Positions 3,909 to 44,622 of a stretch of DNA of 50,912 nucleotides are shown here, in pieces. The position numbers and the translations under genes were made by a program. The stretch is from Clostridiales bacterium (GTDB lineage Bacteria > Bacillota > Clostridia > Oscillospirales > Ruminococcaceae), in the NCBI GenBank assembly GCA_012518465.1, contig JAAYSD010000052.1, positions 1-50,912 on the forward strand, written 5' to 3'. The stretch's first letter is position 1. Each line of letters begins with the position of its first letter. The notes under the pieces were generated by a model. The model saw nothing but the letters and a program-made list of their open reading frames with translations. It ran no database searches and had not been told where the DNA came from.

Positions 3909-4697
3909 ATGAAAAATAAAGTAACAATAAAGGATGTAGCTCAGCAGGCTGGTGTATCTGTTGCTACTGTATCCTATGTAATCAATAATAAAGCAAGCAA
4001 AAGAATAAGTGAGAAAACTCGGAAAAGAGTTTTGCATACTATTAACTTGCTTAACTACACCCCAAACAAATCCGCTCAAGCTCTAGCAACAAGCAAGAGC
4101 AGCACTATTGCTATTCGCTTTTCAAAAGCGGATTCCGCATTAAAAGCTGCACAAAACCACTATATACTCAATAAGCTTTCTACAAAGCTTATTAGCAACA
4201 ATTTTAATACTATATATGTGCCAGACAACTATTGTGGTAAAATAGATGGTGCAGATGCAATAATCTGCTATGATTCAACTGTCGAAGATTTTCATGCCAT
4301 AGGCGAAGCTAATTTTGTTCCATTAATTGCAGTGGGTTGTAGGATAGATGACCCTTTATTTTTTCAGATAAATATTGACTATAACTCAGCATTTAAAAAA
4401 GCATATCAATATTTTAAATCCTCTACATTTACCGTTGCTTGTACAAAAATTATGAATGAAAAGTTATCCAACTTCATTAACAATACTTTTTCAAGTATAA
4501 TAACAATATCAAATTATTCCGACCTTTTAAATTTAAAGGATAAAAATATTTTAATTTTTGAAAGAGCATTATATAATAATGAAAAAAACTTTTTCTTCTA
4601 TAACGCATTTGATGAAAAAATTATTGAAACGATTGAAGAATGTATATATCTTTCAACTAATAGAGTGCCAATGAAAAATCATGACCTAATTATATAA
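3909..4697 (+). CDS. LacI-family transcriptional regulator (short form)
   Basis: 262 residues, clearly shorter than the usual 330-340. The N-terminal helix-turn-helix is textbook (VTIKDVAQQAGVSVATVSYV at residues 5-24), followed by the hinge-helix region NKSAQALA near 56-63. The rest is a weakly conserved, apparently shortened periplasmic-binding-like sensor domain. The start is fixed by the family pattern, since the HTH begins 4 residues after this Met. There is no Shine-Dalgarno sequence and the promoter -10 ends 6 bases before ATG, which suggests leaderless translation. It is divergent from the GH13-malE-malF operon and convergent with the binding-module lipoprotein gene, so it likely controls starch/maltodextrin use. 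A LacI-type operator pair sits at 6270-6299. Confidence 0.9.
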   Translation: MKNKVTIKDVAQQAGVSVATVSYVINNKASKRISEKTRKRVLHTINLLNYTPNKSAQALATSKSSTIAIRFSKADSALKAAQNHYILNKLSTKLISNNFNTIYVPDNYCGKIDGADAIICYDSTVEDFHAIGEANFVPLIAVGCRIDDPLFFQINIDYNSAFKKAYQYFKSSTFTVACTKIMNEKLSNFINNTFSSIITISNYSDLLNLKDKNILIFERALYNNEKNFFFYNAFDEKIIETIEECIYLSTNRVPMKNHDLII

Positions 4698-10499: not shown

Positions 10500-12578
10500 T
10501 TATGACTTGCTTCTTTTGCTCATAATTGCTTCAGCAATAGATTTTGGAACCTGAATATAATGACTTGGTTCCATTACATACTGACCACGTCCCTGTGATT
10601 TTGAACGTAAGTCATTAGAATAACCGAACATTTCGGATAAAGGTACAAATGCATTGATTTGCTGAGCGCCACTTCTTGCTTCCATGCCCTGAATCTGTCC
10701 TCTGCGTGAGTTAAGATCGCCTATAACATCACCCATATAATCCTCAGGAACAATGACAGTAACCTTCATAATAGGCTCAAGAATAACAGGATTTGCTTTT
10801 CTACAAGCTTCCTTAAACGCCATAGAACCAGCAATTTTAAATGCCATTTCTGAAGAGTCTACTTCATGATAAGAACCATCATAAAGTGTAACCTTTACGT
10901 CTACAACAGGATAACCTGCAAGTACGCCCGCTTCCATCGCACCCTTAATACCATTATCAACAGCAGGAATATATTCCTTAGGAATAGCACCGCCAACAAT
11001 TGAGTTAATAAACTCATAGCCTTTACCAGACTCATTAGGCTCAATTCTGAGCTTAACATGACCGTATTGACCTTTACCACCGGACTGACGTGCATATTTG
11101 GTATCAACATCTGCTTCAGTGGTAATAGTTTCCTTATAGGATACTTGTGGTGCACCTACATTAGCTTCAACCTTGAATTCACGCAGCAATCTATCTACTA
11201 TAATTTCAAGGTGCAGCTCACCCATTCCAGAAATAATTGTCTGGCCTGTTTCAACATTTGTATAGGTTTTAAAAGTAGGGTCTTCCTCAGCTAGCTTTGA
11301 TAAAGCTATACCCATTTTTTCCTGTCCCGCTTTTGTCTTTGGTTCAATAGCAAGATCAATAACAGGTTCAGGGAATTCCATTGTTTCAAGAATAACGGGT
11401 GAATCTTCAGCACACAGCGTGTCACCTGTGGTTGTATTTTTAAGTCCAACTGCTGACGCAATATCACCGGCATATACAGTTTCTATATCCTGACGATGAT
11501 TTGCATGCATTAACAGGATACGTCCAAGACGCTCCTTTTTACCCTTAGTAGCATTTAAGATTGAAGAGCCTGAATTGACAGTACCCGAATAAACACGGAA
11601 GAATGTCAAACGTCCTACATAAGGGTCTGTTGCAACTTTAAATGCAAGAGCAGAAAAAGGCTCATCATCGGATGAATGTCTAACTATCTCTTCCCCTGTT
11701 TCAGCATCAGTACCTTTAATTGAAGGTACATCAACAGGTGAAGGCATGAAGTCAACAATTGCATCCAAAAGCTTTTGTACGCCCTTGTTTCTGTATGAAG
11801 TACCGCAAACAACAGGAACAATTGTATTATCAATTGTTGCTTTCCTTAATACAGCCTTGATTTCATCGGTAGTGATTTCCTCACCATCAAGGAACTTAAG
11901 CATAAGCTCTTCGTCCTGCTCTGCTACTGCTTCTAAGAGCTTTTCTCTGTATTCAGCAGCTATTTCCTTCATATCCTCGGGAATTTCTTCGACTCTCATA
12001 TCCTTGCCAAGATCATCATAATAGATGTCAGCATCCATTTCAATAAGGTCTACAATTCCCTTAAAGGTGCTTTCCGCACCAATCGGCAGTTGAATAGGAA
12101 CAGCATTAGTCTTTAATCTGTCCTTCATCATTTCAACTACTCTAAAAAAGTCTGCTCCCATTATATCCATCTTATTTACATAAGCCATTCTGGGAACTTT
12201 ATATTTATCCGCCTGACGCCAAACTGTTTCTGACTGTGGCTCAACTCCGCCCTTAGCGCAGAAAACCGTGACCGAACCGTCAAGCACTCTCAAGGAACGT
12301 TCAACCTCAACTGTAAAGTCAACGTGCCCCGGAGTATCGATAATATTGATTCTGTGCTTCTTCCAGAAAGCGGTAGTAGCAGCAGAAGTAATAGTAATAC
12401 CTCTTTCCTGCTCCTGTGCCATCCAGTCCATTGTTGCACTACCGTCATGAGTTTCGCCTATCTTATGGTTTACACCTGTATAAAAAAGAATACGCTCAGT
12501 CGTGGTAGTTTTACCTGCATCAATGTGAGCCATTATACCAATATTACGGGTCATTTCAAGAGATACTTCTCTAGCCAT
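10500..12578 (-). CDS. fusA: Translation elongation factor G
   Basis: 692 residues, normal for EF-G. GTPase motifs: [15 protein letters not shown] (17-31), [15 protein letters not shown] near 58-72, [20 protein letters not shown] near 81-100, [10 protein letters not shown] near 135-144. The C-terminal domains IV and V, with [15 protein letters not shown] and [13 protein letters not shown], are complete. It catalyses translocation and, with RRF, ribosome recycling. It sits between rpsG and tuf as in the classical str operon. Start fixed by GGAGGATTT before ATG. Unusually, 199 bases separate it from the preceding rpsG gene. Confidence 0.99.
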
Positions 12579-31110: not shown

Positions 31111-31148
31111 AAAAAGAAAAAGCACTCCAAAAGGAAATGCTTTTTCTT
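31111..31148 (-). terminator. Terminator of the second sugar ABC operon
   Basis: AAGAAAAAGCA/TGCTTTTTCTT stem, continued by TCC/GGA, then TTTTT on the minus strand, about 50 bases after the last permease gene. Its A-rich flank gives little support for action on the other strand. Confidence 0.9.
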
Positions 31149-31196: not shown

Positions 31197-32057
31197 CTAT
31201 TCTTTTACACCGCCAAGTGCAACACCTGCAATAATAAACTTTGATAAAGAAAAATATACAATCATTACAGGCAAAATAGCAAGCGTAATCATCATATAAA
31301 CCTCGCCAACATCTAATGAAGCCCAATCCTTAGACCTTAAGTTTGCTATCAAAATCGGCACAGTCTTTTTATCCTTTGTCTGAATAATCAATGAGGGCAG
31401 GAAGTAGTTATTCCATGCACCAACAAATGTAAAGATAGCTTGCACTGCCAAAGCAGGCTTCATAATAGGCATTACTATTTGATTAAAGGTTCTAAATTCG
31501 CCTGAGCCATCTATCCTTGCCGCCTCAATTATTTCCAAGGGCAGCGAGCTGTCCATATATTGCTTCATAAAAAAGAATACAACCGGCGAAGCAATAGCAG
31601 GAATTATCAAAGGATAAAATGTATTTCTCATACCCATTTTATTGACTAGATCTACAAAGCCAAGTGCAGAAACCTGTGTAGGCACAGTCATAATAAGTAA
31701 TATAAAGTTAAACATAAACTTCTTGCCCTTAAAATTGTACACATGTATTGCATATGCTGTCATCGCTGAGAAATAAATCGCTAAAACAGATGTAAATCCA
31801 GAAACTATAAGGCTATTAAGCAATCCTGTGCCAATAGGAAACTGATCCTCGGATAATACCTTTTTAAAATTACTTATAAAGTTGCTTCCGGGTAAAAAAT
31901 CAAATCCCTGCTGAATCTGATAATGTGAACGTGTAGAATTTATTATCAGCATAAAGAAAAAGAACAAGCACAGCAGTGAAAAAAATATTAATACAATATA
32001 GCTGACAGCACGCCATAGCTTTAATGACATACTTTCCTTTACTAAATGTCCTTTCAT
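31197..32057 (-). CDS. MalG-type sugar ABC transporter permease
   Basis: 286 residues from ATG 32057 (a GTG one codon earlier is also possible; both overlap or touch the stop of the preceding permease). Six membrane segments are expected. The EAA loop reads EIIEAARIDGSGEFRTFNQIVMPIMKPA near 176-203, diagnostic of CUT1 inner-membrane components that contact the ATPase. Ends in FIIAGVALGGVKE, a common C-terminus in MalG/AmyC-type permeases. With the MalF-type partner it forms the channel; the ATPase must come from elsewhere, probably a shared MsmX-type protein. The substrate is unknown. Confidence 0.93.
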   Translation of the reverse strand: MKGHLVKESMSLKLWRAVSYIVLIFFSLLCLFFFFMLIINSTRSHYQIQQGFDFLPGSNFISNFKKVLSEDQFPIGTGLLNSLIVSGFTSVLAIYFSAMTAYAIHVYNFKGKKFMFNFILLIMTVPTQVSALGFVDLVNKMGMRNTFYPLIIPAIASPVVFFFMKQYMDSSLPLEIIEAARIDGSGEFRTFNQIVMPIMKPALAVQAIFTFVGAWNNYFLPSLIIQTKDKKTVPILIANLRSKDWASLDVGEVYMMITLAILPVMIVYFSLSKFIIAGVALGGVKE

Positions 32058-32059
32058 CA

Positions 32060-33010
32060 CTACACCTTCTTCCTTAAGCTGCTCGATGCACTGTTTCTAC
32101 TGAAAAAGTAATAAACAATCAAGCTAAATACAGAGCATATTACAAACATAAATACAGAAATAGCACCAGCCACACCATAATTTCTTGAAGTAAGATTTAA
32201 GTTTAGATACATTATTACAGTCATAGCTGAGTTATTAGGCGAACCCTTACCATTAGTAAGAATCTGCGGCACATCAAACATTTGCAATCCGCCAATAAGT
32301 GAAGTAATAAGCACATAAATCAAGACCGGCTTAATTAAAGGGAGTGTAATTTTAAAGAAAATCTGCAGTTGCGATGCACCATCAATTTCAGCTGCCTCAA
32401 TCAAGGAATAATTTAATCCCATCATAGCCGCCATTAGCAAAATTGTAGTATTTCCAAACCACATCATAAAGTTCATCAAAGCGACAACTCCCCAAGTGCC
32501 ACCAACCGTATCCAAAGCCCTTATAGGAGAAAATCCCATCATTGTTAAAATGCTATTGATAGGGCCTGTATCCGAATTTGAAAATAGGGAGAACATTAGC
32601 ATAGCAAAGGCTGATGCCATTATCAAGTTCGGCATATATATAATCGATTTAAAAATACCTGTTCTTTTCAAGTTTAATCGGTTATTTGTAAACCAATACG
32701 CAAATAATAAAGAAATAATTATCTGTGGTATAAAGCCAAGTATCCACATAATAACAGTATTTTTCAGATACACTAATATTTTAGAATTAGTAAATAATGT
32801 TTTATAATTCTCTAGTCCCACAAAATTAGGTCCTACAAAAGTATCACTAACCTGTGGCTTAAAATATTCAAAAAAGCTATAATAAAACGTTGTAAATAAT
32901 GGGTATAATTGAAAAACGATAAAGGCAGCTACAAAAGGTATAAGAAAAATATATCCCCACTTCGCATAGCTGACCATTTTCGACTTTCTTTTAGCTTTGC
33001 CAAAAGCCAT
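32060..33010 (-). CDS. MalF-type sugar ABC transporter permease
   Basis: 316 residues with a basic start (AFGKAKRKSKMVSYAKWGY) followed by about six membrane segments. The pattern VGLENYKTLFTN after the first helix and the EAA loop IEAAEIDGASQLQIFFKITLPLIKP near 201-225 are those of CUT1 permeases. Second gene of the operon, preceded by a strong hairpin at 33112-33147 and coupled to the MalG-type gene by direct stop/start contact. Partner of the interrupted binding protein upstream. Confidence 0.94.
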   Translation of the reverse strand: MAFGKAKRKSKMVSYAKWGYIFLIPFVAAFIVFQLYPLFTTFYYSFFEYFKPQVSDTFVGPNFVGLENYKTLFTNSKILVYLKNTVIMWILGFIPQIIISLLFAYWFTNNRLNLKRTGIFKSIIYMPNLIMASAFAMLMFSLFSNSDTGPINSILTMMGFSPIRALDTVGGTWGVVALMNFMMWFGNTTILLMAAMMGLNYSLIEAAEIDGASQLQIFFKITLPLIKPVLIYVLITSLIGGLQMFDVPQILTNGKGSPNNSAMTVIMYLNLNLTSRNYGVAGAISVFMFVICSVFSLIVYYFFSRNSASSSLRKKV

Positions 33011-33163: not shown

Positions 33164-34591
33164 TTAAGCGGGTTTTTTAAGGTCTGGATACTTAGCCAAA
33201 GCCTTTTCATAGAAGTTTTCAAGTGCCTTTTCATAAGTATCTACATCTTTACTATCTGGATTGAAATAATCCTTCATAGCACCTTGGAAGCTCTCGTTCA
33301 AGCCTTGGTCATAAGCTGTTGTCTTATCCATCTTAATGTTCTTAGCAACCTCAGCAAATAACTTAAGATGATTTTGTCCGCCTAGGAATGCTGATTGGAA
33401 ATCTGAGTTAGCTAGCTCTTCCATAGCAGCTACATTGTTAGTAAAGTCCTGAGTTCCTTCAGTAATCTTCTTCGCTGTTTCGCCATCACATGTAAGTCTC
33501 TTCATAAGCTTAGCGATAACTTCCTTGTTATCTGTCTGGGAATACGCACAGATCCATGTACCACCCCAGAAGTAGCTCTGTGGTCCGTATGTAACAGCCC
33601 ATTCGCCATACAATCCATTACCCTTTTCTAATTTTCCTCCATCCTCTTCAGCTGTTGCCAAGGAGTTTCCAAGAAGTGTAAAGTCAATTCCCCATGTTGA
33701 GTAGAAGAAGCCAAAGGTCTTGCCTTCAGGGCTCTGTTCCTTTGCCCACTCATCAGACCATAGAGAAGCCTTATTGTTATAGCCCTTGTCTGTGTAAGTC
33801 TTAGTCTGATCTACCCACTGCTTAATAGCATCGTCAATAACGATTGCGTTAGAATCATCTACCCATTTACTAGAAACATTGTTAGAAAAGGTTCTATAAG
33901 AATCATCATAACCAGCTAGCATAAAATAGCCCTTATCCTTCATCTTAGCAGCAGTTTCATCAAACTTTGTCCAGTCTGAAATAACTTCCTGAACCTTATC
34001 AGGCTCATCAGTGCCAAGGACTTCCTTAGCTATATCACGTCTATAAGCAAACAATCCGGGAGTAGCCTGCCATGAAACGCCCTTGATTTTACCATCTGTG
34101 CTTGTCATTACTTCCTTGGTGTACTCATACATTTGCGACATATCATCATCAGTAAGTCCTAAGTCCTTAACATCAGCCGATACGCCTCTGTTTACATACT
34201 TAAGTGCATAGTCAGCCTCAACCAAGAAAATATCAATTTTCTCATCAGCGTCTATGTATTCTTGATTCATCAAGTCGCCATCAAGCTTGTTTTGATAAGC
34301 ATTTTCAGCATTAGGTGTGATAATCTAGTTTACCGTTCCGCCATTGCTTTCAAATTCGTCAATAATATCTTGTGCATAGCCCTCAACTCTTTGTTGAAAT
34401 TCATTATTCCAGCAGTAAATATTAAGAACTTTTCCTTCTTCAGCGGTGTTGTTAGTATCATCTTTACTACCATCACTCTTTGTACTATTACCAGTGCCGC
34501 TACTTGAATCTCCAGGTTTACAAGCTGTGAGTGCAGTCACAGACATTAAACCTGCAAGAATAGCTGCTAATAGCCTTTTAGATTTAGCCAT
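33164..34591 (-). pseudogene. Sugar ABC transporter binding lipoprotein interrupted by one in-frame TAG
   Basis: Read through, 475 codons form one family 1 solute-binding lipoprotein. ATG 34591 has GGAGGAAGA; the signal peptide ends in LTAC with Cys24. Codon 89 is TAG (34325-34327). The same frame continues without gap as IITPNAENAYQNKLDGDL and runs intact to 33164. Homologues often have a tryptophan or other hydrophobic residue before V/I-ITP at this place, so TGG to TAG by one base is likely. No frameshift, no other stop, no codon decay. TAG ends other genes here (e.g. rpsG), so the code is not reassigned. It is either a recent null mutation, a strain polymorphism, a base-call error, or suppressed. 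A fragment could restart at ATG 34273 but would lack the signal peptide. Confidence 0.85.
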
Positions 34592-44482: not shown

Positions 44483-44622
44483 ATCCAAGCCCCCATTTAT
44501 GGGCATAAGCTTGCTGCGGCACACGAAGAAATCTGCTTAATGCTGCTCGGTTCCCCGCCTGACATGGTTCACAGCACTCCGTTGCACAGGGCTTATACCC
44601 ATAAACAGGGGCTTGCAATACA
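44483..44622 (-). ncRNA. ffs: Signal recognition particle RNA, small bacterial type
   Basis: On the minus strand the hallmark domain IV is clear: GTGAACCATGTCAGG, then GGGGAACCGAGCAGCATTAA, that is, the GUCAGG and AGCAGCA sides of the Ffh-binding loop. The ends pair over a long distance (AAGCCCCTGTTTATGGG with its near-complement at 44485-44505), making one rod of about 135-140 bases. The long Alu part of the large SRP RNA of Bacilli and many Clostridia is not seen. A T tract (ATTTTTAGTTTTT) follows near 44480. Promoter at 44629-44657. Location in front of dnaX is conserved. Confidence 0.93.

Follow-up and report, generated by a model that had tools for sequence, protein, structure and literature searches.

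A single in-frame TAG, probably a recent nonsense mutation, in the binding-protein gene of a putative beta-glucoside/cellobiose importer

Results

On the minus strand of the window, i.e. the whole stretch of 50,912 nucleotides analysed here, a gene of 475 codons for a solute-binding lipoprotein of a carbohydrate ABC transporter was recognised at 33164..34591 by reading of the sequence and by alignment with homologues. Its frame runs from an ATG at 34591 to a TAA and contains a single internal stop, a TAG at codon 89 (34325..34327, minus strand), which lies at 19% of the gene length in the codon context AAC TAG ATT, with ATTATC as the bases 3' of the stop. The 88 codons in front of it (34328..34591, minus strand) encode a signal peptide, a lipobox (LTAC, with Cys24), a linker and the first strand/helix of lobe 1, and the remaining 386 codons (33164..34324, minus strand) are free of stops and conserved with homologues.

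Two intact permease genes of normal length follow on the same strand, both with the domain BPD_transp_1 (PF00528): a UgpA/GlcT-like permease of 316 aa (32060..33010) and a UgpE/GlcU-like permease of 287 aa (31197..32060). A terminator-like hairpin at 31114..31148 (minus strand), recognised as a consensus match only, probably closes this three-gene operon. Promoter, ribosome site, lipobox and permease partners had all been regarded as intact in a preliminary description of the locus, and this is borne out for the permeases, the lipobox and the ribosome site, a GGAGG 5' of the ATG, but not for the promoter, as promoter-like matches between 30800 and 35900 occurred only at chance level (27 observed vs 23.7 +/- 5.6 expected).

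The gene order, with the binding lipoprotein first and the two BPD_transp_1 permeases after it, is that of CUT1 importers such as CebE/MsiK of Streptomyces, in which a lipoprotein binder and UgpA/MalF- and UgpE/MalG-like permeases are served by a shared ATPase of the MsmK/MsiK type (PMC4890002). As in these systems, the operon is devoid of an ATPase gene of its own, and one match to OB_MalK above the cut-off, indicating a shared MalK/MsmK-like ATPase, was found elsewhere in the genome (G000:C67:24710-24907). Intact homologues of the binding protein adjoin LacI regulators and GH1 (L007), or else GH94 (L003), and the genome itself holds four GH94 matches. Compared with the PDB, a profile built from five intact homologues matched two solute-binding proteins weakly (E about 3e-5), one of them 8bfy, annotated as a cellobiose-binding protein, with an E value of 3.4e-5. 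Given the homologues beside GH1 or GH94 and the weak match to CebE, a cellobiose binder, the gene probably encoded the binding protein of a beta-glucoside/cellobiose importer. Unlike the Streptomyces system, the binder is only remotely related to CebE and falls below the Pfam and NCBIfam thresholds, the gene is interrupted by TAG, and neither a LacI regulator nor a glycosidase adjoins it within the window. At 3909-4697 (plus strand), opposite the genes for an alpha-amylase and a sugar-binding protein, the window holds a LacI-type regulator that is only 262 aa long; Pfam recognises its HTH and no effector-binding domain.

The pieces before and after the TAG both match dozens of homologues in frame, and the part behind it reaches up to about 65% identity to proteins of Ruminococcus, Lachnospiraceae and Lacrimispora. 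A homologue is encoded in 154 of 397 genomes of the same family, the genus itself being represented by one genome. Among the matches listed, the homologous frames are open except for one in another genome of the family (G373:C32:38135-39217), which carries a single internal TGA, possibly an independent interruption. Searches of Pfam and NCBIfam with the part behind the stop gave no match, nor did an intact homologue find one in Pfam; the proteins form a widespread clostridial binding-protein family (e.g. L002:4623-6074) without a Pfam match. A backup copy as a rescue was rejected: no second member of this family was found in the same genome, though its other binding proteins of the CUT1 type number at least seven.

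In a MAFFT alignment of 54 intact homologues, the column of codon 89 was occupied by Trp in 36 and by Phe in 18 sequences, and by a stop in none. Pairwise alignments showed the underlying codons to be TGG for Trp and TTT or TTC for Phe. Trp is encoded by TGG alone, and both Phe codons are two changes away from TAG. Since the column always holds Trp or Phe, the stop would most simply have arisen by one G-to-A transition from TGG to TAG, which fits the earlier suggestion of a lost tryptophan. In a leave-one-out test on columns conserved to at least 90%, the binding protein retained 93 of 94 family-conserved residues, on par with intact members, and the 386 codons behind the stop contained neither a frameshift nor a second stop. 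The in-frame homology on both sides, the retained columns and the lack of any other in-frame stop place the interruption beyond chance. The same evidence agrees with the preliminary description in that no other damage is visible, and suggests that the inactivation is very recent, a strain polymorphism or a base error.

Whether stops inside genes occur elsewhere was followed through the metagenome-assembled genome (1.83 Mb in 120 contigs, 97.5% complete; 13 short contigs entered the analysis as N). A codon-usage scan for stops inside a coding frame without a start signal behind them covered nearly the whole genome and revealed no excess of internal TAG. In its strict version it recovered 39% of simulated stops, and with the cut-off set to 0.05 it recovered 76%. 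Most candidates proved on inspection to be normal junctions between tandem genes or frames that are not coding. A census based on homology, which used ORFs from the loci of relatives and covered about 68 kb of the genome, yielded only apparent antisense shadow-ORF artefacts apart from the codon-89 TAG. Other interruptions were nevertheless judged genuine. A GH42 beta-galactosidase (locus L119, 7331-9379, minus strand) has one internal TAA at C2:8612, with PF02449 before and PF08532 after it; apart from this TAA, its GH42 domain and trimerisation domain are readable. An alpha/beta-hydrolase (locus L134, G000:C17:10364-11155, plus strand) contains a TAG at 10559 and a TAA at 10733, with PF07859 in the outer pieces and no frameshift seen in the frame, and a decayed fragment lies around C3:36990. 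Between them, the interrupted beta-galactosidase and hydrolase frames carry both TAA and TAG, so that pseudogenes with nonsense stops are nothing unusual for this assembly.

These genes bear on the possibility that the TAG is a consensus or assembly error in a metagenome-assembled genome, in which case the gene of the organism itself would have a sense codon here and would work. Such an error would suit a fragmented assembly and a change that concerns a single base, while the conserved gene around it is undamaged, but the stops in other genes, two of them in one frame, point to real pseudogenes rather than to a lone error, and the lipoprotein gene shows no frameshift or further stop. We regard a base error as unlikely, though by no means negligible.

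Far less credit is due to a reading in which a suppressor tRNA, pyrrolysine machinery or a programmed context allows ribosomes to pass the TAG and to make the full-length protein. An in-frame TAG within an open frame is what amber suppression or UAG recoding would display, and no decay is visible past the stop. However, the gene for RF1 is intact (a second, weaker match is probably RF2), and TAG is an ordinary terminator, used by nine of 42 genes in the window, rpsG and rpoC included, and by 107 of 504 long ORFs genome-wide, i.e. about a fifth. ARAGORN found 25 tRNAs and a tmRNA; a CTA anticodon (tRNA-CUA) was absent from the 25 under strict and permissive settings, in a tRNA set that is incomplete, as tRNAs for Trp, Ala, Ile, Asp and Cys were likewise not found in the assembly. 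This incompleteness leaves formal room for a suppressor. PylS gave only matches below the threshold (best 20.4 bits vs a curated cut-off of 178, which one of 14 control genomes exceeded). A programmed readthrough signal was rejected, since the RNA structure over 103 nt from the stop is not unusual (z -0.68) and the stop is not conserved among the homologues, and AAC TAG A is not known to be a leaky stop context. A genome-wide pattern is missing as well. TAA occurs among the other internal stops, and only one of these is a further clear TAG, in the hydrolase on C17. It follows NYRLAP, at a position that in the alpha/beta-hydrolase family is usually Glu and where Trp is not expected, so that no single amino acid would explain both TAGs. 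Readthrough, including the tolerance by suppression that had been considered earlier, is therefore very unlikely.

An older pseudogene already drifting is highly improbable: a stop so early in the gene would remove selection, but the conserved residues and the undamaged 386 codons speak against drift, in contrast to the two stops of the C17 hydrolase. It is scarcely credible that UAG is partly read in this lineage by a suppressor tRNA missing from the assembly, which would leave the importer with lowered activity.

Discussion

With a probability of about 0.72, the codon-89 TAG is a natural point mutation of very recent date that introduced a nonsense codon into the gene for the binding protein of a beta-glucoside/cellobiose importer of the CUT1 type. 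In natural communities, premature stops specific to a strain have been documented, as have differences between strains in their transporters (PMC8884728), and the present case resembles such strain-polymorphic nonsense pseudogenes in its single point nonsense, in the conditionally useful nature of the gene and in the intactness of the rest; a premature in-frame stop here stands against intact homologues in relatives, as in a recent nonsense pseudogene. The TAG thus represents a recent nonsense allele of an ordinary kind or, less likely, a base error; it is not new decoding, and changes no view of decoding.

As a nonsense mutation, the TAG would cause ribosomes to terminate at codon 89 through normal RF1 and leave an 88-residue lipid-anchored stub without the sugar-binding cleft, a fragment expected to be non-functional. 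A restart inside the gene was rejected as a rescue, as the next start-like codons would give a product of 369 aa and the remaining frame has no signal peptide. The importer would thus be inactive in the sequenced strain; its permeases may still be made, and polarity could possibly lower their expression. The allele may be fixed, or one strain variant may have been caught in the metagenome consensus. The stop, its uniqueness in the gene, the lack of decay, the aromatic column, the intact RF1 gene, the normal use of TAG as terminator and the further nonsense pseudogenes are observed, and from there substrate, loss of transport, timing and population status are inferred. The earlier statement that loss of this protein would silence a whole importer appears reasonable for the importer itself, but the phenotype may be small, given the other CUT1-type binding proteins in the genome.

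If the loss of the importer is fresh, it would be one small example of how the niche of a gut bacterium associated with fibre changes at the level of strains. The locus also recalls that interrupted genes of this sort are split by gene callers. Apart from the importer operon, a small bacterial SRP RNA was noted in the window at 44500-44598 (minus strand), just upstream of dnaX.
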